Part shown: positions 11,428 to 25,542 of the stretch, in pieces | How positions within the stretch are numbered: the stretch's first letter is position 1 | Layout of the letters: the number at the start of each line of letters is the position of its first letter | Assembly (NCBI GenBank): GCA_019912545.1 | Contig: JAIOIK010000017.1 | Location: 1 to 33,385, forward strand | DNA length: 33,385 nt | From: Ignavibacteria bacterium | GTDB lineage: Bacteria > Bacteroidota > Ignavibacteria > Tepidaquicellales > OLB5 | Direction: 5' to 3' | Program-made: the position numbers and the translations under genes | Notes under the pieces: generated by a model | The model's input: the letters and a program-made list of their open reading frames with translations, nothing else | Database searches by the model: none | Told to the model about the DNA's origin: nothing

Positions 11428-11456
11428 GACGCTCTCAAAATTATGAATGAAACAAG

Positions 11457-11503
<47 letters not shown>

Positions 11504-11599
11504 ACTTGAAACTGGCTGTCTTGTTATCTATTTCATAAAACTGCTATTTAGCTTTCTATCTAAGGGGATATTTTCTCCCTTTTATCCCTTTTTCTGTAT

Positions 11600-11620
11600 A
11601 AATCGTAGCCAAATCGTAGC
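11600..11620. repeat. Direct repeat pair, possible integrase arm sites
   Basis: AAATCGTAGC occurs twice with one base between (11600-11609 and 11611-11620), about 100 bp from the tRNA scar. Nothing else is recognised in the noncoding gap 11504-11780. Confidence 0.35.
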
Positions 11621-11780
11621 GAGAATTATAGCTAAAACAAGTATCAAAGATAGCCAAAAGACAGAATATAATCAATTTACTTTTCTCTATAGTGAAGCAA
11701 TCTGCACGTTTTCTTGTGCTTTTCCATCCTTTCGTCGTCAATTGCTGTTCAAATTATCAATTACAATTTATCCTTAAACA

Positions 11781-12674
11781 TTATATCCAAGGATGATTTT
11801 TAGGTGAAATGATTTTTAATACATCTTTGCAAGTAGTTAATTCTAGTTTATTGGAGAAACTATTATTTTGTACCCATTCTAATGATTCAAAACTATAAAT
11901 TCCGGTTATGAGTGATTTTATGTTCGGACAAGAAAGTGCTATTTTGAAGCTTATTGTTTTTAAAATACTGTCAATGTCAAAAGTAGCCGGTATGTCAAAT
12001 AAGTCGAGTAGTTTATTCTGTGCTAGTATTTTGATAATCAAATGTTTCTTTTCAATTTCAAAAATCCTACCTCTTGAGAATGGCGAAAAACCAATAACTG
12101 GTTTCTCTGGATTATTACAAAGAACCTCAACAAGCATACCTGTTTGCAGAATATTAGTATAACCACCAACAAAATCTACCAATTTTGATGTTATTGCAGT
12201 TTCAAATTCAATTTGACTTTTGCACATTAGCCCAATCTTTGGTTGATATTCCAAGTAATCAAAAATGCTAAATATTGATTTCTCAAGCCATTTCTCTAAA
12301 ACTTTCTTCTTCATTTGATGCAAATTAGTAACACCATGATCAACCTCAATGGATACTGCGTAAGGTTTATTACAAGCACAATTTCTTTTAGTTGCTAATA
12401 GACGGCTGTTGAGAAAAGAATTATCACCTTTAAGGATGGGCTCTATTGTACTTTGAACTTTTGTAATGTGGAATGTGCTACCCCCAAGTTCCTTAAGTAT
12501 TCGACAAACTCGTTCCTGTGTACCTAATTTTGCATTGGTGTGAATAACATTTAAACCGCTATTAATGCTTTTCTTCAAAAGCAATTCCCTTTTGTTATCA
12601 TCAATTCCGCTCTTAAGCACGCCGTTAAACAACATTGAAGTTCCAATACCTATATTCGAGAAAGAACTAAACAT
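11781..12674 (-). CDS. Aldo-keto-reductase-like protein with altered active site
   Basis: 297 residues. Family features are IGIGTSMLFNG at the N-terminus, an INSGLNVIHTNAKLG segment aligning with the usual DTAxxYG block, TKVQSTI around the catalytic Lys, GFSPFSRGRIFEI near 200 and CPNIKSLITGIYSFESLEWV near the C-terminus (NADP-binding region). In the DTAxxYG block both the catalytic Asp (now His) and Tyr (absent) are replaced, so ordinary carbonyl reduction is doubtful. It is the last gene of the minus-strand operon and its ATG overlaps the end of the carbamoyltransferase gene by 8 bp. It may be a repurposed or structural subunit. Family moderately sure; reaction unknown. Confidence 0.65.
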   Translation of the reverse strand: MFSSFSNIGIGTSMLFNGVLKSGIDDNKRELLLKKSINSGLNVIHTNAKLGTQERVCRILKELGGSTFHITKVQSTIEPILKGDNSFLNSRLLATKRNCACNKPYAVSIEVDHGVTNLHQMKKKVLEKWLEKSIFSIFDYLEYQPKIGLMCKSQIEFETAITSKLVDFVGGYTNILQTGMLVEVLCNNPEKPVIGFSPFSRGRIFEIEKKHLIIKILAQNKLLDLFDIPATFDIDSILKTISFKIALSCPNIKSLITGIYSFESLEWVQNNSFSNKLELTTCKDVLKIISPKNHPWI

Positions 12675-14399
12675 GGTGTTTCCTTTTTATCAAATAGTTT
12701 TGGATTATAATAAAGTCCAACTTGCTATCAAGGAAATCTGCAATGGCATCACTTGGTGAACTTACGATAGGATTACCCTTAATATTGAATGAAGTATTGA
12801 TAATAGCAGGAATACCGGTAAAACCTCTGTAATAATTTAGTAAATCCCAACATTTCTCATTGAACTTAGAGTTAATAGTTTGAATGCGTGCGGATCCATC
12901 TACATTAAGTGCAGCTGGAATATTTTTACAAGCTATTTCTCTTGCCTTACCTATGCACAACATAAAATTCAATATTGAATGTACAGAGTTTTCGACTTCA
13001 AAATAATCTAGTAGATATTCCTCAAGGATCATTGGAGCAAATGGCCTAAATGTCTCCCTTTCTTTAATGAGGGTATTCAATTTATCTTTTATGGAAATTG
13101 GGTATGCGGGAGATAAAATACTTCGATTTCCCAATGCTCTTGGCCCCCACTCCATTTTCCCTTGAAACCAACCAATAATTTTCTCTTTGCTTAATAAAGA
13201 AGCGGCAGTTAAACTAGGATTTTCTAAAATCTCAAACTCTATATCATTTGTATACCTAGAAATGTCAAGTTTAATTTCATCAGAAGAATATTCGTTACCA
13301 AGAAAAGGATCCCAATCGGGTTTACCTTTGAATTTCAAACACAATCTATTAGCGATCATTAATGCTGCCCCTAAAGATGTGCCACTATCATTTGGTGCTG
13401 GGGGAATGAATAGGTTTTCCACCTCATTAAGTTGCGCAACATATGAGTTGGCAACACAGTTGAGTCCGACTCCTCCCGAAAGACATACGTTTTTATACCC
13501 AGCACGCTTAATTGCTTCTGAAACAATCTTTGAAATTATTCTTTGAGTTAGAACTTGTAGAGAAGTGGCGATATCGACATGAACGGAAGAAATGCTCTCT
13601 CCTTTCTTTCTGTTGGGACCAAGCAATTTGGTTAAGTTATCAAAAGTATTTTTGCCCTTGGTTTTCCAAAAATCACAAACTCTCAAGTCGACAAATGTTC
13701 TTTTATTAACTTCATAATTGAATATTGAAGATAAAATATCCAAATAAATTGGTTTACCAAAAGCCGACAGTCCCATAACTTTGTATTCATCACTTTGTGC
13801 TTTAAATCCCAAAAACTCTGTTAGATAGGAATAAAAATAACCCACCGAAAAAGGGATGCTTATTCCCCCTAGTGATTTTATTGTTTTATTTTCTCCCCTG
13901 AAAAAACCCACAGATAAATATTCACCTCTTCCATCAATAGTAACAATAGTTGCGTTTTGAAAAGGGGACAAGAAAAAAGAACATGCCGCATGAGCTTGAT
14001 GATGGTTTACCCAAATTGCTTTCCAACCTTTAGCATTACTCCATTTTTTTAAATAAAACCACTCATTTAGTCTTTTACGAGCCTTTTTAAATCCATATGT
14101 AAATGATTTTAATGTCAAATACTGAAAAAACATTTTAAATGGAGCCCAAAAGGATAACCAAGGGTTCATAAAAAAAACAGTAAGGACATTTTTTTCTTTA
14201 TCTAAGGAAAACTTATTTGTTATGTAGTCAAGAGAATGTAAAGGGAATTTCCTGGTATGTTTTTCTCTATTAAATCGTTCTTCTTCTACAGCAAACAAAA
14301 TTTTGCCTTCAGAGTAAAGAGCCACGGCTGAGTCATGGGACCCATAATTTACGCCTATTATATATTTTGGGGCTTTATTACTGATAACAAAAAGTTCAT
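12667..14399 (-). CDS. NodU/CmcH-type carbamoyltransferase (5' end apparently frameshifted)
   Basis: Transfers a carbamoyl group from carbamoyl phosphate, through carbamoyl-adenylate, to an acceptor hydroxyl or amine, as in TobZ. The uninterrupted frame from a GTG at 14325 gives 552 residues, with HHQAHAACSFF, VTIDGRGEY, YKVMGLSAFGKP, LSGGVGLNCVANS, FIPPAPNDSGTSLGAAL, the FQGKMEWGPRALGNRSIL carbamoyl-binding segment and a PAIINTSFNIKGNPIV tail. The essential N-terminal block IIGVNYGSHDSAVALYSEG is in the same frame but upstream of 14325 with no start codon. An ATG at 14399 would supply MNFFVISNKAPKYIIG if one more T were present in the 5-T run at 14389-14393. The gene is 54 bp downstream of serS-like. 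Confidence 0.85.
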
Positions 14400-14453
14400 T
14401 AAATTTAATCTATATGAATATGATTGACAATATATATTTGTATGGAAACCTTT

Positions 14454-15749
14454 TTAGATCTTTTCTTTGTTAATAGGTGCAATATATTCCTCGCCGAACC
14501 ATTTTTGTAGAACTTGAGGAACCATTATTCCTCCTTTTGAGTCCTGGAATTGTTCGACGATTGCAGTAAATAGTCTACTTGTAGCTAAACCTGAACCATT
14601 CAATGTATAAACAAAATCAAGTTTACCCTTAGTCGTATTTCTAAATCGAACATTTGTACGAATAGCTTGATAATTCCCTGCATTAGAAACAGAACTGACT
14701 TCTTTATAGCCATGTGAAGGTATGTACACTTCTATGTCATAAGTTCTCTTCATTGAAGCACTAACATCTCCAGCCGCTAGTTTTGTAACTCTGTAATGCA
14801 ATCCTAATGATTCAACCAACTTGGCAGCATTCTCAACAAGTTCATCAAAAGAGTCACGCCATTTATCTGGATGTGCAAAGTGAAACATTTCAACTTTGTT
14901 AAATTGATGTCCTCGTATTGTTCCTTTCTCATCGCTACGATACCCTCCTGCCTCTTTGCGGTAACAAGGTGTATAAGAGAAAAGCTTAATCGGCAAAGAT
15001 TTTTCTAGCAGGATTTCGTCTCGATAAATATTCACTAACGCCGTTTCTGAAGTTGGCAATAAAAACTTTTGTTCTTCATTCAATGCATTATTATCACGGC
15101 TAATGAGAAAAACATCATCGGCAAATTTCGGAAACTGCCCTGCCCCTATACCACTGCTATATGTCAAAATATGGGGAGGCAAAACGAATCTGTATCCAGA
15201 TTTTAAATGCTCTGAAATAAAGTAGTTGATTAATGCCCATTCAAGAACAGCCCCCTTACCCCAATACAGCCAGTTACCAGTCCCGGCTAATTTAACCCCC
15301 CTGTCATAATCAATCAAGTTTAGATCCCTACATAAAGTCATATGATCAAGTTGCTTAAAATTTGATTCTGTCGCACTGCCATATGCTTTCAATACCTCAT
15401 TGTTTTCTTTTCCTCCTGGCAACAGGTCTTCATCGGGAATATTTGGTAAACTCAAAAGTAAATCATTCATTTTACTTTTAAGAAAAGTAGCTTCTTTCTC
15501 TAAAGATTTTGTAGATTCCGAAAGTAATTTTAACTCATTTTTTGTATTAGAAGAGGAAGTATCCTTTGCAAATTTTTTTGTAAGTTCATTTTGTTTATTT
15601 CTTGCAGATTCAAATTCTTGATTTGCCTTTCTCCAATCAGAATCAATTAATAATATTTCAGACAGAATATTGCTAAAGTCATTGCCTCTTTTATTTAAGG
15701 AATGGAGTATTGAGTTATGGTTATCTCTAATTTCTTTAATGCTAATCAT
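14454..15749 (-). CDS. serS: Seryl-tRNA synthetase, divergent copy in a biosynthetic operon
   Basis: 431 residues. The N-terminal antiparallel coiled-coil arm spans about 25-105. The class II catalytic domain has motif 1 (GYRFVLPPHIL and GIGAGQFPKF), motif 2 (CYRKEAGGYRSDEKGTIRGH) and motif 3 (LNGSGLATSRLF). The serine-binding TxE appears as LLPTSE. Several positions usually near-invariant differ: EISSCSNCxDFQARR is EVSSVSNAGNYQAIR here. It starts 11 bp after the radical SAM stop and is followed by the carbamoyltransferase. It could be the organism's only SerRS, but the context suggests an accessory paralogue for tRNA-dependent chemistry or self-protection. Confidence 0.9.
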   Translation of the reverse strand: MISIKEIRDNHNSILHSLNKRGNDFSNILSEILLIDSDWRKANQEFESARNKQNELTKKFAKDTSSSNTKNELKLLSESTKSLEKEATFLKSKMNDLLLSLPNIPDEDLLPGGKENNEVLKAYGSATESNFKQLDHMTLCRDLNLIDYDRGVKLAGTGNWLYWGKGAVLEWALINYFISEHLKSGYRFVLPPHILTYSSGIGAGQFPKFADDVFLISRDNNALNEEQKFLLPTSETALVNIYRDEILLEKSLPIKLFSYTPCYRKEAGGYRSDEKGTIRGHQFNKVEMFHFAHPDKWRDSFDELVENAAKLVESLGLHYRVTKLAAGDVSASMKRTYDIEVYIPSHGYKEVSSVSNAGNYQAIRTNVRFRNTTKGKLDFVYTLNGSGLATSRLFTAIVEQFQDSKGGIMVPQVLQKWFGEEYIAPINKEKI

Positions 15750-15760
15750 AAAAATGTGCT

Positions 15761-16915
15761 TTATTTCTTAATGTTGTCGTTATAAAAATCGTTCATTGGT
15801 TTAGGGTTCCCAATTGCCCCAAAACGTTGAGATCCTAGTTGATTATTATAATGCTTACGAATATCAATTGGGTGAATTACTTCAAGATCATTCTCTCGAA
15901 AATCCATAGCGGTTCTAATTAATTCCACTTTAGACTGTAAGGATTCTCCAGTAAGCATTATATCTGCTTCCGGCCAATCCATGCAAATAGATACTTTTCC
16001 ATTTGGTTTTACTCTAAGTTTGTGGCAACCACCACAGCGATATTTCCATGTATACATTGCCAAAACGCCTAGTATTACATCATAATCGCCAATTTTATAA
16101 TAATTATAAGATGGATTGTCGCCAAGGATGCTTTCTCTGTTAATTTGGTTTAAATCCCCAACCTTACTTAGAGTTTCAAGAATTTCCTTTTCTTCAACCT
16201 TTTCATTTTTCCAGTAATTCTCTCCTTTTTGTTCTAATTGCGCAGGATTTGAAGGGAAAAATTGGTTTAATTTAATTACTAAACTTCCAGCCCTATTTTT
16301 TCTTGAGTTTAACTTGTGGGCATATTTAATAAAATCTGGCAATTCATCTAAAGTAGACTTCATTGTACAGCAACTCATCTTTGTAGGAGTATTTAGCTTC
16401 ATTACTGACTGCTCCAGACCTGATACTACTTTGTCAAAAATATTGACTCCGGTAATCTCATGAAATTTCTGTGGATTTAACGTATCTAGGCTCAAGATTA
16501 CTCTTGTAAGTCCATTCTCTATCATCTTATCAATGTCTTTTGATAATCGGTACCCATTAGTTGTAATAATTTGTTCTGTGAATCCTATTACTTTTGCTTT
16601 TTGCATGCAATCTATAATATCTCTTCGCAAAGTTGGTTCGCCACCAGTCCAGTGTACTCTTTTGATGCCATTCATATAAGCTGCCTGCAATATTTCCACG
16701 ACTTGTATAAATGGTAATACCCTCTGTTGAGGAAAACCTCCTTCAGGAGCACAATAGGTACAAAAGAAATTACAATTTGGAGTTACGCCAAATCTTAAAT
16801 GCCATTTATCAGAGGGATTTTCTGAGTTGATATGAAAATAACCACCCATTGACTTTGTTGCATGTGTGCTATTCATACTATTTGAGTTAATTTTATTAAA
16901 TAGAGTATTAATCAT
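15761..16915 (-). CDS. MoaA-like radical SAM enzyme with C-terminal auxiliary [4Fe-4S] motif
   Basis: 384 residues. The radical SAM motif is C48-x3-C52-x2-C55 in TPNCNFFCTYCAPEGG. Further SAM-binding segments are WTGGEPTLRRDI and TTNGYRL. The C-terminal CGGCHKLRVKPNGKVSIC has C294-x2-C297-x13-C311, the spacing of the second cluster in MoaA. It lacks the C-terminal GG tail used by MoaA for GTP conversion and is about 50 residues longer. So it probably acts on another substrate, possibly a nucleotide, given its MoaA likeness. It is the first large gene of the operon; its ATG overlaps the stop of a 14-codon ORF. Start could also be Met14. Confidence 0.85.
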   Translation of the reverse strand: MINTLFNKINSNSMNSTHATKSMGGYFHINSENPSDKWHLRFGVTPNCNFFCTYCAPEGGFPQQRVLPFIQVVEILQAAYMNGIKRVHWTGGEPTLRRDIIDCMQKAKVIGFTEQIITTNGYRLSKDIDKMIENGLTRVILSLDTLNPQKFHEITGVNIFDKVVSGLEQSVMKLNTPTKMSCCTMKSTLDELPDFIKYAHKLNSRKNRAGSLVIKLNQFFPSNPAQLEQKGENYWKNEKVEEKEILETLSKVGDLNQINRESILGDNPSYNYYKIGDYDVILGVLAMYTWKYRCGGCHKLRVKPNGKVSICMDWPEADIMLTGESLQSKVELIRTAMDFRENDLEVIHPIDIRKHYNNQLGSQRFGAIGNPKPMNDFYNDNIKK

Positions 16916-17547: not shown

Positions 17548-18360
17548 ATGACCACCCGTAAACTCCTTCTCAATAATTTACTTGATATTGGCGGCGTTGC
17601 CACTCTCAATAACCTCTATTCCCCTGACGCTAAAACTCACAAAGGAGGACTCTTATTTACCCGAAAACTCTTTAAGTCGTATATAGAAGACGGTTTAATC
17701 GAAAAAATAGACCCAATCGGCAAACCGGCTAATAAAGCCCGGGAGGTTTTTTATTGCCTGACCAAAAAAGGGGCAGCGTATATCGGCAGATCTGATGAAT
17801 ATAAATATAAAAAATGTCCACGCTCCCCGTATAATGCGCTTCATGAGAGCATGAAGTTTGATGTTGCATTGTCATTCTTACGGCTCTTTCTCAATAAAAA
17901 ATTCACATTCAGGTATGATTCGAGTTTCTATGGAGTTCGGCCGGATATTCTTATTCGAATTGAGAGTACACATCCAAAGGAGCTAACCCGCTTCTTACTG
18001 GTCGAAATAGAACGAAAGAAGACCGTAGACCGGGTATTTAACGAAAAGATTACCCGTTATGAAGAAATGTTCAAAGCCATTGAAAAGAAAAAATCTCATA
18101 ATCTCAGCCAATTCAAAACATTATTCGTGTACTCTGATCTTTGGTATGACGGCTTTTTACGACCCCAGCAGTACCATGAACCGCAAAATATTGAATCAAT
18201 CGGCAGAACTAATTATTTAGTCAAGAGCCTTGTTTCCCGATATTGCCGGAATTTACCACCCAACCGCTACCTGTTTATGCCTTTCCATGACTTCTACAGG
18301 TTACATGAGCCGGTATGGTATCAGGCAGACGGCAATCGTGTGCCGCTCATTATTAAATAA
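17548..18360 (+). CDS. Replication-relaxation-like protein (winged helix plus nuclease-like core)
   Basis: 270 residues. An N-terminal winged-helix region (about 1-85: LLLNNLLDIGGVATLNNLY, VFYCLTKKGAAYIGR) is followed by a core with VRPDILIRIES and, 14 residues on, FLLVEIERKK. The layout resembles the replication-relaxation family of plasmids and conjugative elements. The PD...ExExxK pattern also resembles a PD-(D/E)XK nuclease core. No canonical MOB relaxase is seen in the window, so this protein may recognise or process the element's DNA. No Shine-Dalgarno is seen, but a strong hairpin precedes the ATG. It is followed 11 bp later by a small membrane protein gene. A second relative is encoded at 20122. 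Confidence 0.65.
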   Translation: MTTRKLLLNNLLDIGGVATLNNLYSPDAKTHKGGLLFTRKLFKSYIEDGLIEKIDPIGKPANKAREVFYCLTKKGAAYIGRSDEYKYKKCPRSPYNALHESMKFDVALSFLRLFLNKKFTFRYDSSFYGVRPDILIRIESTHPKELTRFLLVEIERKKTVDRVFNEKITRYEEMFKAIEKKKSHNLSQFKTLFVYSDLWYDGFLRPQQYHEPQNIESIGRTNYLVKSLVSRYCRNLPPNRYLFMPFHDFYRLHEPVWYQADGNRVPLIIK

Positions 18361-18371
18361 TTGGTACTGGT

Positions 18372-18659
18372 ATGCCATTTAGTACAATCTCTATAATAGA
18401 ATTAGTAATCATTGCTATTCTTTTAGTAGTAATCGTTGAGTATGAAATAGAACGCCGCAACATGAAAAAGGAAATACATTTGGTGTATAGGGATATGGGA
18501 TTTAGGATTTCAGCTCATATTGAGCGGACATTAAAGCATGCCAACGCTGTACGGCATAAGCTATCCAATGAGCTGTATCTCAATAGTCCCAGGAAAAATG
18601 ATGTTATCAAAGAAGTATGCAATGCCTTTTATGAACAATTATCTAATAAACTTAAATAA
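18372..18659 (+). CDS. Small single-pass membrane protein
   Basis: 95 residues. One hydrophobic helix (about 6-24, IIELVIIAILLVVIVEY) is followed by a basic, probably helical soluble part with RHKLSNELYLNSPRKNDV. It begins 11 bp after the replication-relaxation-like gene and probably shares its transcript. No family is recognised. Single-pass proteins of this size are common accessory subunits in conjugation modules, which is only an inference here. Confidence 0.55.
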   Translation: MPFSTISIIELVIIAILLVVIVEYEIERRNMKKEIHLVYRDMGFRISAHIERTLKHANAVRHKLSNELYLNSPRKNDVIKEVCNAFYEQLSNKLK

Positions 18660-18691: not shown

Positions 18692-19423
18692 GTGAAAGAC
18701 ATTTTAAAATGCCTTGAAGCTATACTCCACCGTGGGTATAGCTCATTTACAATTTTCAATGACTGGCTCGATATAATGCTTTTTGCATTACAGCGGGACG
18801 ACCCTCATTATCTCGAAATTGTTAGGAAGTACAAAAACGACCAAGCCGAAGGTAAGCGTGAAATTGACTATTTCTGCAAAGCCTTTGCGCTGTTGCAAAT
18901 CGAGATGGAAAAGACCAATGACGATATTCTTGGGCAAGTGTACATGGAGTGGAACATGAGTAACAAGTACCGGGGACAGTTCTTTACGCCGGGTCACGTT
19001 GCCTCTATGATGGCTAAAATGCTCAGTCCCAAGGGCAGAATATTGGATCCTTGTTGCGGTTCAGGTGTGATGCTTGTTGAAGCGATTAAGACGATGGACA
19101 ATGAAGCACTTGATGGCTCAGTCTTTGTTGGTCAGGATATTGATATAACCTGTGCCAAGATGTGCGCTTTGAATTTGTTGTTCTTTAATGTTAATGGTTA
19201 TGTAGTTTGGGGAGATAGCCTCTTAATGGAGTGTAAACGGGTTTATCAGACAAGCAGAAGCGTTTTAGGCGGTAGTATTCGTGAATTGACGGGTGATATT
19301 TTAGAAGGTTTTATACGATCATATATACCGGCTGTGAAAGAAACCTTTAAGGAAGTTAAGCCCATGAGTGAAGAAGAAATTAATAAAATATCTGCTCAAA
19401 GTGAGCAGTTATCGTTCTTTTAG
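18692..19423 (+). CDS. N-6 adenine DNA methylase-like protein lacking the NPPY motif
   Basis: 243 residues from a GTG with AAAGGAG 6 nt upstream (18679-18685). The sequence follows HsdM-type methylases: KYRGQFFTPGHVASMMAKML (S-adenosylmethionine-domain entry), motif I DPCCGSG (119-125), then GQDIDITCAKMCALNLLF and WGDSL. The catalytic motif IV (N/D)PPY/F, expected shortly after WGDSL, is not present: the sequence reads LLMECKRVYQTSRSVLGG. There is no restriction or specificity subunit beside it. It may bind SAM and DNA without methylating, or use another residue. A zinc-ribbon gene follows at once. Confidence 0.75.
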   Translation: MKDILKCLEAILHRGYSSFTIFNDWLDIMLFALQRDDPHYLEIVRKYKNDQAEGKREIDYFCKAFALLQIEMEKTNDDILGQVYMEWNMSNKYRGQFFTPGHVASMMAKMLSPKGRILDPCCGSGVMLVEAIKTMDNEALDGSVFVGQDIDITCAKMCALNLLFFNVNGYVVWGDSLLMECKRVYQTSRSVLGGSIRELTGDILEGFIRSYIPAVKETFKEVKPMSEEEINKISAQSEQLSFF

Positions 19424-19437
19424 AAAGGAGGACTGAT

Positions 19438-19677
19438 GTGGAATCAATTGAAATTAAGCCTGATGTGATGGTGATTCTGTGCCAGAGAGCTGAAGAAGTG
19501 GGCAAGCCGATCACTGATGTTATAGATGAAATGTTACGTTCATTATTGTTGAATGGTTTTGGGAAGCCAGTTATATTAAAATGTAATAAATGTAAAAGCG
19601 AGATTGATTATGAAATAAATTATTCTCAAGGTTATTGTGATTATTGTGAAAGTGTCGTGTTCATTGATAAAGAGTGA
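19438..19677 (+). CDS. Small protein, possible ribbon-helix-helix plus zinc ribbon
   Basis: 79 residues from GTG at 19438, with AAAGGAGG at 19424-19431, one of the strongest ribosome binding sites in the window. Residues of about 5-38 (IKPDVMVILCQRAEEVGKP then VIDEMLRSLL) look like a ribbon-helix-helix DNA-binding domain. Cys49, Cys52, Cys67 and Cys70 in CNKC and CDYC form a zinc-ribbon pattern. It is translationally close to the methylase-like gene and followed by a terminator. It could regulate the island; the ribbon-helix-helix call is tentative. Confidence 0.55.
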   Translation: MESIEIKPDVMVILCQRAEEVGKPITDVIDEMLRSLLLNGFGKPVILKCNKCKSEIDYEINYSQGYCDYCESVVFIDKE

Positions 19678-19684
19678 GTTTTTT

Positions 19685-19720
19685 AAAGCTATCTGTATGA
19701 TAACGGGTAGCTTTTTATTT
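19685..19720 (+). terminator. Terminator after the methylase/zinc-ribbon pair
   Basis: AAAGCTATC (19685-19693) pairs with GGTAGCTTT (19706-19714) including one G-U, followed by TTTTATTTT. Confidence 0.7.
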
Positions 19721-19788
19721 TGTGTATATATGTGAAAATATGTTTTGATTTTTTAAAAAAAGTATTATTTTTGGTTTCACGCGAATAG

Positions 19789-19821
19789 AGGGATGACTCC
19801 TTGAATAAAGGGGTTATCCCT
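19789..19821. terminator. Hairpin, 14 bp with G-U pairs
   Basis: AGGGATGACTCCTT (19789-19802) pairs fully as RNA with AAGGGGTTATCCCT (19808-19821) using G-U pairs, with loop GAATA and then GTTTTG. It is a second terminator or the start of the structured region 19789-20111, in a gap of about 440 bp with no gene. Confidence 0.5.
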
Positions 19822-19908
19822 GTTTTGTTTATATGAGGTGCTTGTTATAAGCAAATGAGCTAAGTGTAGAAGGAATGTTAAATACCCGGAGCCTGCCCGA
19901 TAAGCCTG

Positions 19909-19995
19909 GCATACACTCTCACGTGCTTGTCAACCCTCCCTCCTGAAAAAGTGTGAGAATTAAGGAACAGGGTATGACAAGCGTTTGAGGTATGC
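19909..19995. other. Nested inverted repeat upstream of the transfer-like operon
   Basis: GCATAC (19909-19914) / GTATGC (19990-19995) and GCTTGTCA-ACCC (19925-19936) / GGGT-A-TGACAAGC (19970-19982), with partial pairing between. The arrangement, outer and inner stems around a 33-nt loop, parallels 17269-17395. A candidate nic region, iteron or structured RNA. Confidence 0.5.
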
Positions 19996-20094
19996 GGCTA
20001 CGCCATATTATTATGTGGAGGGCCTATAAACATTGTAAGTTATTTTAAAAAGAGAACTTAGTTATGAAAAGCCATATAAAACAACCGTAAACTT

Positions 20095-20111
20095 TATACG
20101 GGCGCCGTATA
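20095..20111. promoter_or_regulatory. Small palindrome before the 20122 start
   Basis: TATACGG-GCG-CCGTATA, 10 bp before the ATG. It would fit an operator or a translation-blocking hairpin. Confidence 0.4.
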
Positions 20112-20121
20112 GAACTTAAAT

Positions 20122-20823
20122 ATGAGAATTGAACAGAAAAAGACGATCAAAGTAGATGAACTTGCGGAATTTGTTCCAAGAAAAGCGGGAGCGACATGGA
20201 GTGCTTTGTGGCAGATATTCTACTATACACGGCTGTTCAAATATGTTCATAAAAAGCATTATCCCAAGATTAAAAAGAGTTTCGATAAGATATGCACCCA
20301 TGATAAATTACAAAAAATGTGTTCATTAGGCTACCTGAGAAGCCCTCAACGTGACATTTATTGTGCCACTGATAAAGTATTGCCTATTTTAAGGGAAACA
20401 GGCTTTAAAACCGAAATTTTGCCCTCTCAGCCTATTGGGAAAGGAGATATTAACGAGCTGAATAACACGGATATCTTTGTAAAGCTTACTAAACTTGAGC
20501 ATTTTTATGCGCTTGTATACCCAAACTTCGGTTACATTATTCCTGATGCCCTGATGATACAACTGGATAGTAAAAGTAAGAAATACAAACTGACTTTCAT
20601 CGAAGTTGAGGCACAAAAGCCAAATTGGAGTGAATATGTAGAGAAGAAACGTGAAAATTATCATAAGTTATCTAGAGATATTAGAGTTTTTGAATATTGG
20701 AAAAATATATGTGAGAAGTTGACTATTAAACCGCCTGATATAAAAGATTTGAGTTTTACAGTTTCATTCTACGGATCAATCAAAAAAGATTTCGGGATAG
20801 GGTTCACTTTTGAGAACATTTAA
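20122..20823 (+). CDS. Second replication-relaxation-like protein
   Basis: 233 residues. The N-terminal winged-helix-like part (about 10-95, with LQKMCSLGYLRSPQRDIYCATDK) precedes a core with IIPDALMIQL and, after 10 residues, LTFIEVEAQKPNW then KRENYHKL. The PD...ExExxK order matches the protein at 17548, although overall similarity is low. It heads a tightly packed operon: the next gene starts inside its last codons (14-bp overlap), then a coiled-coil membrane protein and a TraG/HerA-type ATPase. It is the best candidate for the DNA-recognition or nicking factor of that operon. Confidence 0.55.
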   Translation: MRIEQKKTIKVDELAEFVPRKAGATWSALWQIFYYTRLFKYVHKKHYPKIKKSFDKICTHDKLQKMCSLGYLRSPQRDIYCATDKVLPILRETGFKTEILPSQPIGKGDINELNNTDIFVKLTKLEHFYALVYPNFGYIIPDALMIQLDSKSKKYKLTFIEVEAQKPNWSEYVEKKRENYHKLSRDIRVFEYWKNICEKLTIKPPDIKDLSFTVSFYGSIKKDFGIGFTFENI

Positions 20824-21682
20824 AGAAATATTTGATTTTCGAGATAGAGACGACGATTTTGAGAGTCCGCTTGAATTTTTTCTATTTTTGATTGTTGGCG
20901 GAGCTTCTCAATATGGAATATATTGGGGAATAACTTATATACTAAACATCTTTAACACAGTCGGGAATGCCTACTCATTAGGAGGGAAGCTATTCAGCGT
21001 TTTGCTATTTTTTGTCGCGCTTATGATTGTATCAGTAGGCGTAAGAACTTTCCCGATATTCTGGTGGAAGATTGTCAGGATTATCTACCTTTTCCTTGTT
21101 TCTTCTCCCGAAATTATTAGAAATGAAACAGATATCGTTAGACGAATTTGGCAGAACAGGGGTTTTGGAAAGTTTCGTTTATTTGGAGGGTTCCTGTTTT
21201 ATTTCCGGTTGCGACAGAGAGTAATTGCATATTTTCTGGCCTTTTTATCAATTGGCATAACAACATGGTATTTTGCATTTAAGCAGCATGAATATGAAAA
21301 GACATACTGGAAAGTACATTTCTATTACGGCGAGCCGATACCTGAAATAGTGTTCAAACCAAATGTAAGCTATACCTTTGAATCAAGTGCTGATTTATAT
21401 GCCATATATTTAAACGGCACCGAACATATAGTGAGCAAATATATGAAACTTGAAGAAAATCCCCGGGTATTATCCCTAATTTTTCCTGAAAAATGGAATG
21501 TAAAGTTTCCAGACACGATGCATGTGGAGTTCTTATTCTATGCCGATCATATTAACGAAATCTTCAGCCAGTCATTCGAGGTCTGGGCAGACAAGGAAGA
21601 AGGACTGAAGCTAACATACAATGACTTTATCTTTGAGAGAGTAAAGAAAGTTCCAAGAACAAAAAGGTATTCAAGAAATTAA
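20810..21682 (+). CDS. Membrane protein of the transfer-like operon
   Basis: 290 residues from TTG at 20810, which overlaps the previous gene by 14 bp. I see three hydrophobic regions: about 24-48 (FLFLIVGGASQYGIYWGIT), 61-79 (LFSVLLFFVALMIVSVGV) and 137-157 (VIAYFLAFLSIGITTWYFAF). A basic cytoplasmic loop lies between the second and third. The C-terminal 130 residues look like a beta-rich extracytoplasmic domain. No family is recognised. Its place between a DNA-binding protein and an ATPase suggests a membrane component of a translocation channel. Confidence 0.6.
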   Translation: MRTFKEIFDFRDRDDDFESPLEFFLFLIVGGASQYGIYWGITYILNIFNTVGNAYSLGGKLFSVLLFFVALMIVSVGVRTFPIFWWKIVRIIYLFLVSSPEIIRNETDIVRRIWQNRGFGKFRLFGGFLFYFRLRQRVIAYFLAFLSIGITTWYFAFKQHEYEKTYWKVHFYYGEPIPEIVFKPNVSYTFESSADLYAIYLNGTEHIVSKYMKLEENPRVLSLIFPEKWNVKFPDTMHVEFLFYADHINEIFSQSFEVWADKEEGLKLTYNDFIFERVKKVPRTKRYSRN

Positions 21683-21693
21683 ACAATACAGTT

Positions 21694-22854
21694 ATGATTT
21701 GGTTTATAGTCGCAGTGGCAATATTTGTTTTGATCGGCAGCATGGTTGACTTTTCCTGCAACGGCTGGAATGTCACAAAGCAATTTTTTACAGATTCATG
21801 GTGGGGTATCATCGCTATTGCTTCAGGTTTGCTCTCGTTATTTATGTTTTACGGCTCAAGCAAATCGTATCGTGATGTCAAAATAAATGAAACATTTCTT
21901 CCTAATCCGGATAAATTACAATTAGATAAAAAGAAAGGCAGCATACCGATGTCAAAGAACAATACAGAAATCATGGAATTCGATTTGTCCCAACTTACTA
22001 TGAATGTCCTCACCAAGAAAATGGCATTTGTAATGACCAAACCTGGTCCTGTTTTTTTCAAAGGCTGGGGAAACAGGAGGCTTGAGCTTGACGTAGAGAG
22101 AGTTGAGATAATCAGGGAATATATTGAGGCGATCAGGAGTACGGGAGACTCGTTAATTCACCTGCATGCCGATTCGGTTCTCAGCTTCGAGAAAATGGAA
22201 AACCTGGTTAAGATAAAACGAAAAGACTTGATGTACCAATTGCGAGAATCAGAGCTAAAACTTGATCTGCTAGAACAAGAATACCAAACGAAAATAGAGA
22301 AACTTCATTTAGATATTGCGAACCTGGAAACACTGGTGTATGAGAAAATATCCCAGATTGAAAACCTCAATGCACAGACCGAGCAGATATTAAGCGAGAT
22401 TAGGAACAGAAGCAAAGAGGTTGATGCTGATATAAAAATTAAAAAAGATACATCAGAATCAGACATAAAGGTAAAAGAAGAAGAATCACGGGCAAGAATT
22501 CAGCTAGAAAAAGACAAAGCGAAAGCAGAAATATTCATAATGAAATTAAAAGCAGGTGATGATTCTGCTATCAGCAAAAAAAGAGCCACAGCCCTAGATA
22601 TGGTAATAAAAGAGATGAACATAGACAATATCACACCCACGGAAGTGTATTTGCTTATTAAGTTGCTTGATACAAATAATACAAATGACTTTTTAGATTT
22701 TACGAACAAGATGAAGGTAATGGAAGAGGAACTCGAAAAAATGAGGATACAAAACGAAATTCTTAAAGCAGATGCAAAGGAACGAAAGGCTAAAGCTAAT
22801 GAAACAGAAGCTCAATCCAAACAAAACATCAAAGACCTGTATAGTAATAAATGA
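21694..22854 (+). CDS. Membrane-anchored coiled-coil protein
   Basis: 386 residues. Two N-terminal hydrophobic helices (1-18 and about 36-54, WWGIIAIASGLLSLFMFYG) are followed by a small soluble domain (90-165, with KKMAFVMTKPGPVFFKG). A long coiled coil runs at about 175-295 (LDLLEQEYQTKIEKLHLDI), and a second, highly charged helix at 335-386. The stop overlaps the start of the ATPase gene (ATGA). No family is recognised. A coiled-coil membrane protein beside a TraG-like ATPase could be an anchor or scaffold for the translocase. Confidence 0.6.
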   Translation: MIWFIVAVAIFVLIGSMVDFSCNGWNVTKQFFTDSWWGIIAIASGLLSLFMFYGSSKSYRDVKINETFLPNPDKLQLDKKKGSIPMSKNNTEIMEFDLSQLTMNVLTKKMAFVMTKPGPVFFKGWGNRRLELDVERVEIIREYIEAIRSTGDSLIHLHADSVLSFEKMENLVKIKRKDLMYQLRESELKLDLLEQEYQTKIEKLHLDIANLETLVYEKISQIENLNAQTEQILSEIRNRSKEVDADIKIKKDTSESDIKVKEEESRARIQLEKDKAKAEIFIMKLKAGDDSAISKKRATALDMVIKEMNIDNITPTEVYLLIKLLDTNNTNDFLDFTNKMKVMEEELEKMRIQNEILKADAKERKAKANETEAQSKQNIKDLYSNK

Positions 22855-24041
22855 TTAAGCTGGGTATTGGATTAGACTCATCAGAAGGCTTTGCCGGAAT
22901 AAAGGAAAAAGACCGGTTTAAGCATCTGCTTTGTCTGGGCTCTACCGGAACTGGAAAAACCACCTTTCTTGCCAATCTCATTATTAAAGAGCTCGATAAT
23001 GCAAGCATTATCCTTGACCCAAACGGACATCTTACGGAATTTGTAGGTCCGTATATTCCCCAGGAAAGATTGATCTATATTGATAAGAATAACCACATAT
23101 CTCTCAATCCTTTGACCCGAAAATATCTCAACTGGTCAGAGAATGCCAAAGAGCTGATACAAGTTGTAAATGCCGCCGTTTCTGAAATTAATCCTAGACA
23201 AGTATCTCTGACCGCACTTATGACACGGATTACCAAAAATGCACTGCGGGTATTTACTAATGAACAATTATCAATTGAATATTTAATGAAGTTTCTTGAT
23301 AATCCAACAGAAAGAAAGATCCATTACAGTGATCCTTACTGGAGGGCTTTTGATGACAAAGGAAACCGGGAGCAAGTTGAAAGCTCTAAAAGGGTAAGTA
23401 CAAGACTTTCTGTGTATTATGATGATCTCGACTTGAGACCATTCCTAACTGGAAATAACGAATTTGATATAACGAAGATTGTAAAAGAGAAAAAAATAGT
23501 CTTAGTCAATCTCGATGGATTTGATGATGAAGCGACATCGTTTCTGGGCTGTCTCATAACAAACCAGATCAAATCATATTATCTGCATCAGGCAGAGCGT
23601 GGCGGGAACCCGCTCTATTTTTATTGTGATGAGTTTCATTTATTCATCACTGAACACTTTGACCGTTTTTTAGCTGAAGGCAGGAAGTTTAATATGAGCT
23701 TCAACTTTTCAGGGCACAGCTTTGCACTGCTCAACAAGTTTTTGCGGAGCATGTTCCTGAGAAGCTACGTTAAAATTGTTCTTCAAAACGAAGATGAAGA
23801 TGCCCAGATTTTGGCAAATTCTCTACAGGTCAAAACAACAGACATAATAAACTTAAAGCCTTTTCATGCACTAGCAAGAGTTGGAAATAAAAACTATAGG
23901 ATCGTTCTATTCAAGCCGCCGCCAACGGACACCTTATTCTTTAAACCTGAAAAACAAAAACCGGATGAAACCGTGTATGCCGAAAAAGACCTGAATTTTC
24001 TACGTGACGGCTGGTTGAGTTATGATATAATTGAAGGATAA
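22851..24041 (+). CDS. TraG/VirD4/HerA-type P-loop ATPase (coupling-protein-like)
   Basis: 396 residues. Walker A is GSTGTGKTT (30-38); Walker B is PLYFYCDEFHLF with Asp260-Glu261. Between them are DPNGHLTEF and the ISLNPL segment. The downstream LAEGRKFNMSFNFSGHSFALL and the ending resemble the ATPase domain of conjugative coupling proteins and HerA/FtsK translocases. There are no membrane helices of its own, unlike VirD4; these may come from its operon partners. It is the last gene of the four-gene overlapping operon and is followed by a structured region and a terminator. Expected to pump DNA; no VirB4 ATPase is in the window. Confidence 0.8.
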   Translation: MIKLGIGLDSSEGFAGIKEKDRFKHLLCLGSTGTGKTTFLANLIIKELDNASIILDPNGHLTEFVGPYIPQERLIYIDKNNHISLNPLTRKYLNWSENAKELIQVVNAAVSEINPRQVSLTALMTRITKNALRVFTNEQLSIEYLMKFLDNPTERKIHYSDPYWRAFDDKGNREQVESSKRVSTRLSVYYDDLDLRPFLTGNNEFDITKIVKEKKIVLVNLDGFDDEATSFLGCLITNQIKSYYLHQAERGGNPLYFYCDEFHLFITEHFDRFLAEGRKFNMSFNFSGHSFALLNKFLRSMFLRSYVKIVLQNEDEDAQILANSLQVKTTDIINLKPFHALARVGNKNYRIVLFKPPPTDTLFFKPEKQKPDETVYAEKDLNFLRDGWLSYDIIEG

Positions 24042-24076
24042 GCCGCCGTCAATATTACTTGGAGCAAATGTTCCTT

Positions 24077-24198
24077 GGCGAAGATGGATTATTATTCCTG
24101 TGCGTTCAACTATTCAATTGCATGCGCTCTTGTGGCGTTTGGGAGGTTCAGGATGACGACCTTGATCCATTCTTGCCGGTGCATGCGAGTTAGGTCGT
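24077..24198. other. Structured noncoding region after the ATPase gene
   Basis: GGCGAAGATGGAT (24077-24089) pairs mostly with ATCCATTCTTGCC (24165-24177), while ACGACCT (24156-24162) pairs with AGGTCGT (24192-24198), a crossing or alternative pairing. TGCATGCG occurs twice (24119-24126, 24180-24187). No gene is seen between 24042 and 24362. Confidence 0.35.
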
Positions 24199-24235
24199 AA
24201 AACAAACTTTCATGCATGGTTGCGGCTTAGATATA

Positions 24236-24278
24236 AAAAAGGCTGGATACTTCTTATAAAGAGGTAAACAGCCTTTTT
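24236..24278 (+). terminator. Terminator of the transfer-like operon
   Basis: AAAAAGGCTG (24236-24245) / CAGCCTTTTT (24269-24278), a 10-bp perfect stem ending in a T-run. Confidence 0.75.
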
Positions 24279-24289
24279 GCATTAACTAC

Positions 24290-24318
24290 TTGACAAATCC
24301 TTATAAGTATGGTACAAT
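24290..24318 (+). promoter_or_regulatory. Consensus sigma70 promoter
   Basis: TTGACA (24290-24295), 17-nt spacer, TACAAT (24313-24318): 11 of 12 consensus bases with ideal spacing. It drives the DUF3846 gene, whose AAAGGA site is at 24349-24354. Such a classical promoter is unlike the TTG / TAnnTTTG type of Bacteroidetes. Confidence 0.75.
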
Positions 24319-24362
24319 CTAAGAAATAAATATTAAAGAATTTCTAAGAAAGGACTTGTACA

Positions 24363-24629
24363 ATGACCGCTCTTTTAATTAAATCAAGCGGAGAGAAAAT
24401 TAGCATCACTCCTGAAAACGGAATTATCTTTTCCCTAAAAGAACTGCAAAAGCATGTAGGAGGGTATATCGAAATGCTCTTAACCAAAGATTAGCGAACC
24501 ATGATAGTTAATGAGGAAGGAAAGTTAAACAATCTTGAGGTCAACAGCGAGGCAACCAAACTGATAGAAGAAACAGAAATAGTCGGAGATGTTGTCGTCT
24601 GCGATTGGTCAATGATTCAGAGGAATTAA
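24363..24629 (+). pseudogene. DUF3846 gene interrupted by an in-frame TAG
   Basis: The ATG at 24363 (AAAGGA 8 nt upstream) opens 43 codons ending FSLKELQKHVGGYIEMLLTKD, then TAG at 24492-24494. The same frame continues as RT-MIVNEEGKLNNLEV and EIVGDVVVCDWSM to the TAA at 24627. Joined, the 88 residues match the whole DUF3846 pattern (LQKxVGGYIE, then xNEEGK, then GDVxxC). The stop therefore splits one family domain. An ATG at 24501 could restart translation. DUF3846 proteins occur in phages and mobile elements and have no known function. It could be a nonsense mutation, a sequencing error, a recoded stop or a split gene. Confidence 0.7.
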
Positions 24630-24643
24630 AATCTTAAATTTTT

Positions 24644-24690
24644 AAAGTCATCACGAGAATTTACATTCTCTTGGTGACTTTTTTATTTTG
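24644..24690 (+). terminator. Terminator after the DUF3846 gene
   Basis: AAAGTCATCACGAGAAT (24644-24660) and ATTCTCTTGGTGACTTT (24665-24681) pair with one mismatch and G-U pairs, followed by TTTATTTT. Confidence 0.7.
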
Positions 24691-24732
24691 TGTTAAAATT
24701 AATAAATAACTAAATATGAAAGGAGTTGTTCA

Positions 24733-25542
24733 TTGTCAAAACAAGAGTTTTTAAATTTTAAAGAGATTAGTTTAGCTATTACATTTGAAGATGTTCTGAA
24801 CTGGCTCAATATCCCGTTCCAGAGAAAGGACAAGGAATTACGGGGTGAGGGTTTTATCATAAATATTGATAAGAATCTGTTCTTCTGTCCAGATAATGAC
24901 GAGCTAAAGGGATCTGTCATTAACTTTGTGTCGCATTACAAGAAAGTGGATTTGAGAGAAGCAGCAACACTACTAAAAGGGGAATTTCTTTCAAAAAAGA
25001 ATGAGACTAAACCAAAGCGAGATATACCGAACCTGACCCTTGAATGGCATCCGTATATTCAGGAACGTGGCATCAGTGAAGAAATCTACAAGGAATATGA
25101 ATTAGGTTATGTAAAGCAACGAAGTGTTGTCGCCGGACGGATAGCCTTTAAAATATATGGCTATTTTGGAAAGCATATCGGATATATTGGCTACAAAGAA
25201 GAAGATGGTTCCTGGTTCTTCCCTAAAGGCTTTAAAAGACCGTTATACAACGCCTTTAGAGTTAAAGACCCTAAATCAGTCATAGTTACTGTTGACCCGT
25301 TTGATACCCTTAAAATTGCCTCATTGGGTTTTAAGCAGGTTGTATCTCTTTTAGCTAATTCGATGACCTCAGAGCAAGAGGGGCAACTTAAAAGATTCAG
25401 ATACATATTGTTGTTTCATCCAAAGCCTGAAAACATCGTGAATCGACTTTATACAACAAGTTTTGTAAAGGCTCCTGTACTTTCGAAGCCCATAAAAGAA
25501 ATGTCAGATAATGAATTGAAAGAATTTATAAAGCCCGCGTAA
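24733..25542 (+). CDS. Primase-like protein with degenerate zinc and Toprim motifs
   Basis: 269 residues from TTG at 24733 with GAAAGGAG at 24718-24725. The N-terminus follows the primase layout (ITFEDVLNWLNIP, LFFCPDNDELKGSVINFVSHY, LREAATLL) but keeps only one Cys, so the zinc finger is lost. Residues of about 100-180 resemble the linker before a Toprim domain. The Toprim-like part reads VIVTVDPFDTLKIASLGF (Asp188 where the catalytic EGxxD Glu is expected) and ILLFHPKPEN at 229 in place of the DxD segment. So ordinary primer synthesis seems unlikely; it may bind DNA or nucleotides for the element. Its stop lies inside the following terminator. Confidence 0.65.
   Translation: MSKQEFLNFKEISLAITFEDVLNWLNIPFQRKDKELRGEGFIINIDKNLFFCPDNDELKGSVINFVSHYKKVDLREAATLLKGEFLSKKNETKPKRDIPNLTLEWHPYIQERGISEEIYKEYELGYVKQRSVVAGRIAFKIYGYFGKHIGYIGYKEEDGSWFFPKGFKRPLYNAFRVKDPKSVIVTVDPFDTLKIASLGFKQVVSLLANSMTSEQEGQLKRFRYILLFHPKPENIVNRLYTTSFVKAPVLSKPIKEMSDNELKEFIKPA

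Follow-up and report, generated by a model that had tools for sequence, protein, structure and literature searches.

A relaxase-like nuclease and coupling-type ATPase operon in a tRNA-integrating element that shares its backbone with tailed phages

Relaxases of the MOBC type, such as TraX of pAD1 and MobC of CloDF13, are reported to combine a winged helix with a PD-(D/E)XK domain (PMC12857230), and their family PF13814 (Replic_Relax) is listed as MobC (PMC5357655). Genes for such proteins are found beside genes for DNA pumps in several settings. Tailed phages of Bacillus carry a replication-relaxation gene together with a gene for a type IV secretion system (T4SS) protein in Tyroviruses (gp17-gp18; PMC9703825), or for a T4SS/FtsK-like protein in Novomoskovsk and Bolokhovo (PMC9658697), where the pairs have been seen as plasmid-maintenance genes. 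On the Lysinibacillus plasmid pSSII-1 a Replic_Relax gene adjoins that of a TraM-recognition ATPase, and P1-like phage-plasmids that lose their virion genes become mobilisable (PMC10879196). Here we analyse 33,385 nucleotides of DNA from an Ignavibacteria bacterium (assembly GCA_019912545.1, contig JAIOIK010000017.1; hereafter the window). It is the whole of contig C116 in a genome of 3.66 Mb (G000) and holds an operon for a relaxase-like nuclease (RR2), two membrane proteins that we call adaptors, and a DNA-translocase ATPase. This operon is part of a tRNA-integrating, chromosome-integrated mobile element. An initial annotation had seen in it an unfamiliar DNA-transfer machine. The genes do look like a set for nicking and pumping DNA; the set is not free-standing, being part of the backbone of that element, and in view of the Tyrovirus, Novomoskovsk/Bolokhovo, Lysinibacillus and P1-like precedents the module is a variation on recorded relaxase and pump pairs, known in Bacillus phages and Firmicutes plasmids, and not a new category.

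The four frames lie on the forward strand (Table 1) with an overlap of 14 bp, a gap of 11 bp and an overlap of 4 bp, as first described. The order nuclease, one or two adaptors, ATPase was found in 18 loci including the window, usually with a primase-like gene next, and in all 18 the frames either overlap or abut, with gaps of no more than 39 bp; three of the 17 other loci have a single adaptor gene. Since this overlapping or abutting order recurs in 17 other loci, the operon is real and its order is not due to chance. ATPase homologues are present in 14 of 99 searched genomes, counting the window's own. The four genes are the core of a longer conserved block, which runs from a second relaxase-like gene (RR1) through a slot for ArdC, methylase or RadC, a small CxxC protein and variable genes to RR2, one or two adaptors, the ATPase and a Toprim/primase-like protein; the Toprim gene, RR1 and a structured DNA element, R1, share the backbone of the operon. 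Purifying selection acts on this backbone in headless elements, that is, those devoid of virion genes, with nonsynonymous divergence (dN) of 0.2-0.36 for RR1, RR2, Toprim and most ATPases, and synonymous divergence (dS) saturated or above 1. Direct searches with the ATPase and RR2 against genome contigs, phages and plasmids, and single-sequence searches of viral contigs, returned nothing or distant matches only; the viral contigs with the operon were recovered by profile search. The Microcystis phage Mwe-JY31 (L078, 22 kb) has a distant relative of the ATPase, and the adjoining downstream gene weakly matches the RR1 profile (E 0.005).

The integrated state is seen at the left boundary of the window element, where attL duplicates the 3' part of a tRNA-Ala(GGC) gene. 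The intact gene lies on another contig of the same genome (G000:C35:9735-9808), which also carries an integrase and a full set of Shango SngABC genes between the integrase and the tRNA (L104, 4126-9556). Because attL copies a tRNA whose intact gene and integrase sit on C35, we infer that the element starts at 11456, runs past the right end of the window and finishes on that contig. Its attL is laid out as the tRNA-Ala duplication in genome G034, whose integrase is 59% identical to that of C35. No att repeats were found near the 8-kb core, the true att sites being further out. Related elements are bounded in the same manner: the headless elements of G034 (35.9 kb, tRNA-Ala, 98-bp duplication) and G073 (32.8 kb, tRNA-Met, 45 bp), and the headed, virion gene-bearing elements of G024 (39 kb, tRNA-Asp, 119 bp at 91%) and G029 (42.8 kb, tRNA-Thr, 56 bp at 82%). 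One integrase family is used by the tRNA-bounded elements. The headless element of G078 carries IetAS between Toprim and integrase, so that the association with islands and defence loci, which the initial annotation had proposed to look for, is found both in the tRNA boundaries and in the Shango and IetAS genes.

A phage side of this family had been missed at first. Nine of the 18 operon loci are parts of tailed phages or virus contigs, and seven IMG/VR virus contigs have the operon. Terminase and portal genes come after Toprim in L039-L042, L044, L045 and the prophages of G024 and G029; a terminase is found there in eight of the eight headed loci with enough sequence, out of nine headed loci, and a major head gene also follows in several. 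The equivalent region in other genomes holds type IX secretion system-type proteins, YD-repeat genes or defence genes, and in the window a YD-repeat gene occupies the place of the terminase and virion genes of the phage relatives. Loci L039 and L040 are 73% identical in RR2, 88% in Toprim and 72% in the ATPase, and their terminases have no BLAST similarity; the major head genes of L039 and L042 are of different families. Judged from these sequence comparisons, the backbone stays constant while the virion genes are exchanged. On the RR2 tree headed and headless members are interspersed, with five changes of state, at least two of them forced by well-supported branches, and the Toprim tree forces only one. 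Repeated switching between the two forms appears likely. In the genomes of headless elements, no virion matches were obtained among the tested G034 proteins, no phrog_38 TerL was found in G000, G034 or G073 (other terminase types were not searched genome-wide), and no portal of the L028 type was found in any genome with a headless element, G000 included. These observations can be drawn together in the proposal, which we consider plausible yet short of an even chance, that a single element family with one chassis (a structured DNA origin, two MOBC-like relaxases, a soluble TrwB-type pump with adaptors, a primase-like protein and a tRNA integrase) has repeatedly switched between tailed phage and headless, defence-carrying element, a conjugation-type pump serving both virus and island.

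The nucleases resemble MOBC relaxases in their predicted winged helix and PD-(D/E)XK domains, in the D...ExE...K motif and in the adjoining coupling-type ATPase. The model of RR2 (pLDDT 82.7) has both domains, residues 1-95 being MarR-like (Z about 7) and residues 107-233 NucS/EndoMS-like (Z 7.6-8.0), with modest Z values obtained on a prediction. The catalytic-type residues P141 D142, E161, E163 and K166 are invariant over nine members, and the architecture of a MOBC relaxase, winged helix plus PD-(D/E)XK, is predicted for this protein. In the RR1 family 8 of 10 members match PF13814 (best 1.3e-5), and in that of RR2 only the most distant member does (L045, 1.1e-5); the alignment of the two profiles spans the PD...ExE catalytic motif (E 9.4e-4). 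Foldseek gave no match below 0.001 with RR2, PDB sequence searches with RR1 and RR2 gave nothing convincing, and the Replic_Relax protein of pSSII-1 gave no match when compared by profile with RR1. CloDF13 did not provide a MOBC yardstick, as no intact MobC frame was recognised in its deposited mob region. Compared with the MOBC relaxases, the proteins described here match weakly in sequence, occur as two paralogues per element, belong to a host group and a phage context that are both new, and are relaxase-like by prediction.

The R1 element, of about 143 bp, lies upstream of RR1 and has a fold z of -6.2. By covariance-model search it is present in nine of the 59 related genomes, of which seven also have an ATPase match and two (G031, G037) have none; it is found additionally in the prophage or viral loci L025, L042 and L053 and in the headless elements of G073 and G078. 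Of its 37 pairs, 25 are changed on both sides in an alignment that was not fitted to the structure. Across 12 sequences, in an alignment that was fitted to the model, there are 3 G-U pairs and 7 A-C mismatches in about 480 cells, the terminal column, which is G-T in 11 of the 12, standing outside this count. More G-U pairs are expected in a functional RNA. Because the covariation is almost purely Watson-Crick and G-U is near absent, R1 is likelier to act at the DNA level, as a hairpin, a cruciform or inverted protein-binding sites; a functional RNA is less likely, even with a promoter-like TTGACC-19-(T/G)ATAGT sequence before it. No Rfam family was matched at the gathering threshold. The position of R1 next to a relaxase-like gene suggests that it is a candidate origin of nicking or replication.

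The ATPase matches DUF87/HerA (3.8e-11), TrwB_AAD_bind (1.1e-7) and T4SS-DNA_transf (9.7e-5). The best structural match of its model, for which the mean pLDDT is only 70, is TrwB (Z 21.6 over 328 residues, 3.5 A), with HerA at Z 16-17 and TcpA/FtsK at about 10, and residues 95-212 form an all-alpha insertion between the Walker motifs, as in TrwB. The protein thus described is alike to the TrwB/VirD4 coupling proteins in its RecA-like motor with a helical insertion, and differs from them in having no transmembrane (TM) anchor, separate adaptor genes and no secretion system genes. No hydrophobic segment was found in the three ATPases scanned (window, L022 and L024), in agreement with the initial annotation, and aligned relatives are similar in length (about 386-433 aa). 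The window ATPase shares only 26-30% identity with its counterparts in sister elements, the nearest included, and 39% with that of viral contig L045; RR2 and Toprim are 57-64% identical to those of the nearest sister elements. Since the motor is far more divergent than its neighbour genes and closer to L045, it has probably been exchanged by recombination in an otherwise constant operon.

The initial annotation had suggested that the two middle proteins probably provide the membrane anchor. In a Kyte-Doppler scan the first has two clear TM segments and a possible third, so that it is a membrane protein of which three passes are not certain; the second has one N-terminal TM segment followed by a long coiled coil, in line with the membrane coiled-coil protein first described. 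Two kinds of adaptor set were distinguished. One pairs a zinc-ribbon protein that has two TM segments with a coiled-coil protein that is soluble; in the other, which is that of the window, both proteins have TM segments, one having an outer domain and the other a coiled coil. Anchoring by the adaptors is consistent with TM segments in most loci and fails in three. In one of several G238 copies (L046, 3853-6045) a single frame comprises coiled-coil adaptor and ATPase, which may be a genuine fusion or result from a frameshift artefact.

The explanation that we favour, with somewhat better than even confidence, is that the operon belongs to a nick-and-pump relaxosome module of a tRNA-integrating element, with a helper's borrowed channel as the likeliest outlet for headless members and with phage members using the module on their own DNA. 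The integrase would excise the element; one or both of the Replic_Relax/MOBC-like nucleases would then bind and nick R1, as fold and position suggest. The TrwB-like ATPase, probably a hexamer, would pump the nicked DNA, held by one or two adaptors that usually, not always, supply a membrane anchor, and the Toprim protein may help second-strand synthesis. For headless members we place mobilisation slightly ahead because of the TrwB-fold motor, the mostly anchored adaptors and the survival of the module in elements that lack virion genes.

Several observations weigh against this explanation. The window RR1 matches PF13814 weakly (0.0048, 17.4 bits, under the curated cut-off of 25.3) and the window RR2 has no Replic_Relax match. 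The ATPase lacks the anchor that defines VirD4-type coupling proteins, and in 3 of 18 loci (L025, L029, L043) the module has no TM segment at all; as the anchor is not conserved, the idea of translocation across a membrane is weakened. Searches of nine host genomes found no VirB4, the ATPase itself aside, and a mating channel would consequently have to come from an unseen helper. In the window's own genome VirB4 (PF03135) is absent throughout, which extends the earlier observation made on the window alone. A full T4SS locus around the operon was considered and rejected, since none was found, and no such locus lies beside any examined relative; homologues are thus not always embedded in one, which had been named at first as the observation that would refute the initial annotation. 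Finally, the position of the module directly before the terminase in phages suggests replication or packaging over export.

Phage replication and packaging would offer the best alternative, although we consider it clearly the less probable: RR1 acting at R1 would start replication, the ATPase would move or segregate replicating DNA to the terminase, and headless members would be satellites packaged by a related phage. The operon is present in all nine headed loci with the terminase placed as described, a primase-like gene accompanies it, the two forms intermingle on the RR2 tree, where at least two changes are forced, and defence genes, here IetAS and Shango in headless elements, are common in satellites (PMC11389934). 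However, TerL, portal and major head genes are freely replaced beside the operon, leaving it no fixed partner, the absence of an L028-type portal from headless-element genomes means no resident helper of that type, and membrane segments are kept in most loci. A defence or exclusion complex of the HerA-nuclease type, in which the ATPase and a PD-(D/E)XK nuclease attack competing DNA, is improbable: the PADLOC HerA models match weakly (6.7e-7) and the structural comparison also matched HerA-nuclease complexes (Z 16-17), but TrwB is clearly closer, RR2 resembles RR1 and Replic_Relax, and the module is core to phages and found with a primase-like gene, an integrase and R1. A DNA-entry motor, a role that the Pony genome paper (PMC3853050) suggested for an FtsK-like phage protein, would have ATPase and adaptors pull phage DNA in at infection. 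This would suit the membrane adaptors and the SLT transglycosylase-like gene that several phages have near RR2, but it is very unlikely given no sign of these proteins in virions, a module kept in virion-less elements and some loci that have no anchor.

Compared with the described systems, the proposed nick-and-pump module has the same two predicted activities as the Bacillus phage pairs, also in tailed phages. It differs from them in its operon of three or four genes that includes adaptors, in being accompanied by R1, by a primase-like gene and by another relaxase-like gene, and in occurring in headless elements too. Phage satellites and integrative mobilizable elements are alike in tRNA integration, defence cargo and absence of virion genes, and the integrated G034 and G073 elements, with their own integrase and att sites and no virion genes among the proteins and families searched, are satellite-like in this respect; here, in contrast, the whole backbone is shared with virion-bearing phages. 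In the P1-like case the non-phage form gains a relaxase, whereas here both forms have relaxase-like genes. The backbone ties conjugation-type DNA processing to tailed phages in one conserved arrangement, its natural pairs with and without virion genes bear on what a relaxase and coupling protein set does for a phage, and it points to a possible route by which phages turn into mobilisable defence islands. Furthermore, a conserved, apparently DNA-level structure beside a relaxase gene makes an origin directly testable.

Table 1. Features of the window, with the basis of each assignment
Feature	Position	Strand	Basis or remark
attL, duplicated 3' part of tRNA-Ala(GGC)	11456..11503		48 bp identical to intact tRNA
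Repeat CGTAGCCAAATCGTAGCGAGAA, probable arm-type integrase site	11591..11625		Also inside both G034 element ends
Cargo: aldo-keto reductase-, carbamoyltransferase-, SerRS-like and radical SAM genes	11781..16915	-	Names read from sequences
R1, conserved three-way-junction element, candidate nick/replication origin	17263..17405		Fold and covariation
RR1, Replic_Relax-type relaxase-like protein	17548..18360	+	PF13814 family matches
Small protein, hydrophobic N terminus (read from sequence)	18372..18659	+	Open reading frame only
N6 DNA methylase	18692..19423	+	PF02384 1.2e-19
Small CxxC (zinc-ribbon-like) backbone protein	19438..19677	+	Same-place homologues in most elements
RR2, winged helix-turn-helix and PD-(D/E)XK relaxase-like nuclease	20122..20823	+	233 aa; model, invariant residues
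Adaptor 1, membrane protein, probable extracytoplasmic domain	20810..21682	+	290 aa, TTG start; TM segments
Adaptor 2, membrane-anchored coiled-coil protein	21694..22854	+	386 aa; homologues in equivalent slot
TrwB-fold DNA-translocase ATPase, no membrane anchor	22851..24041	+	396 aa; structural match
Primase-related Toprim protein	24733..25542	+	phrog_47 DNA primase 7.7e-19; PDB primase 2au3 4.5e-7
YD-repeat/Rhs-like cargo gene, 2188 aa	26492..33058	-	Homologues beside backbone in G020, G027

The methylase slot is occupied by ArdC antirestriction and/or RadC genes in other elements, and genes of these kinds are typical of elements that enter as DNA. The cargo next to attL is perhaps a small-molecule pathway; of 44 related genomes only two have its radical SAM gene, each time beside or inside this type of element. 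The C-terminal part of the YD-repeat protein includes a metalloprotease-like stretch, GPHEAGHLMG. The non-coding gaps before RR2 (19678-20121) and before Toprim (24042-24732) are long and shared with sister elements, and may hold signals.

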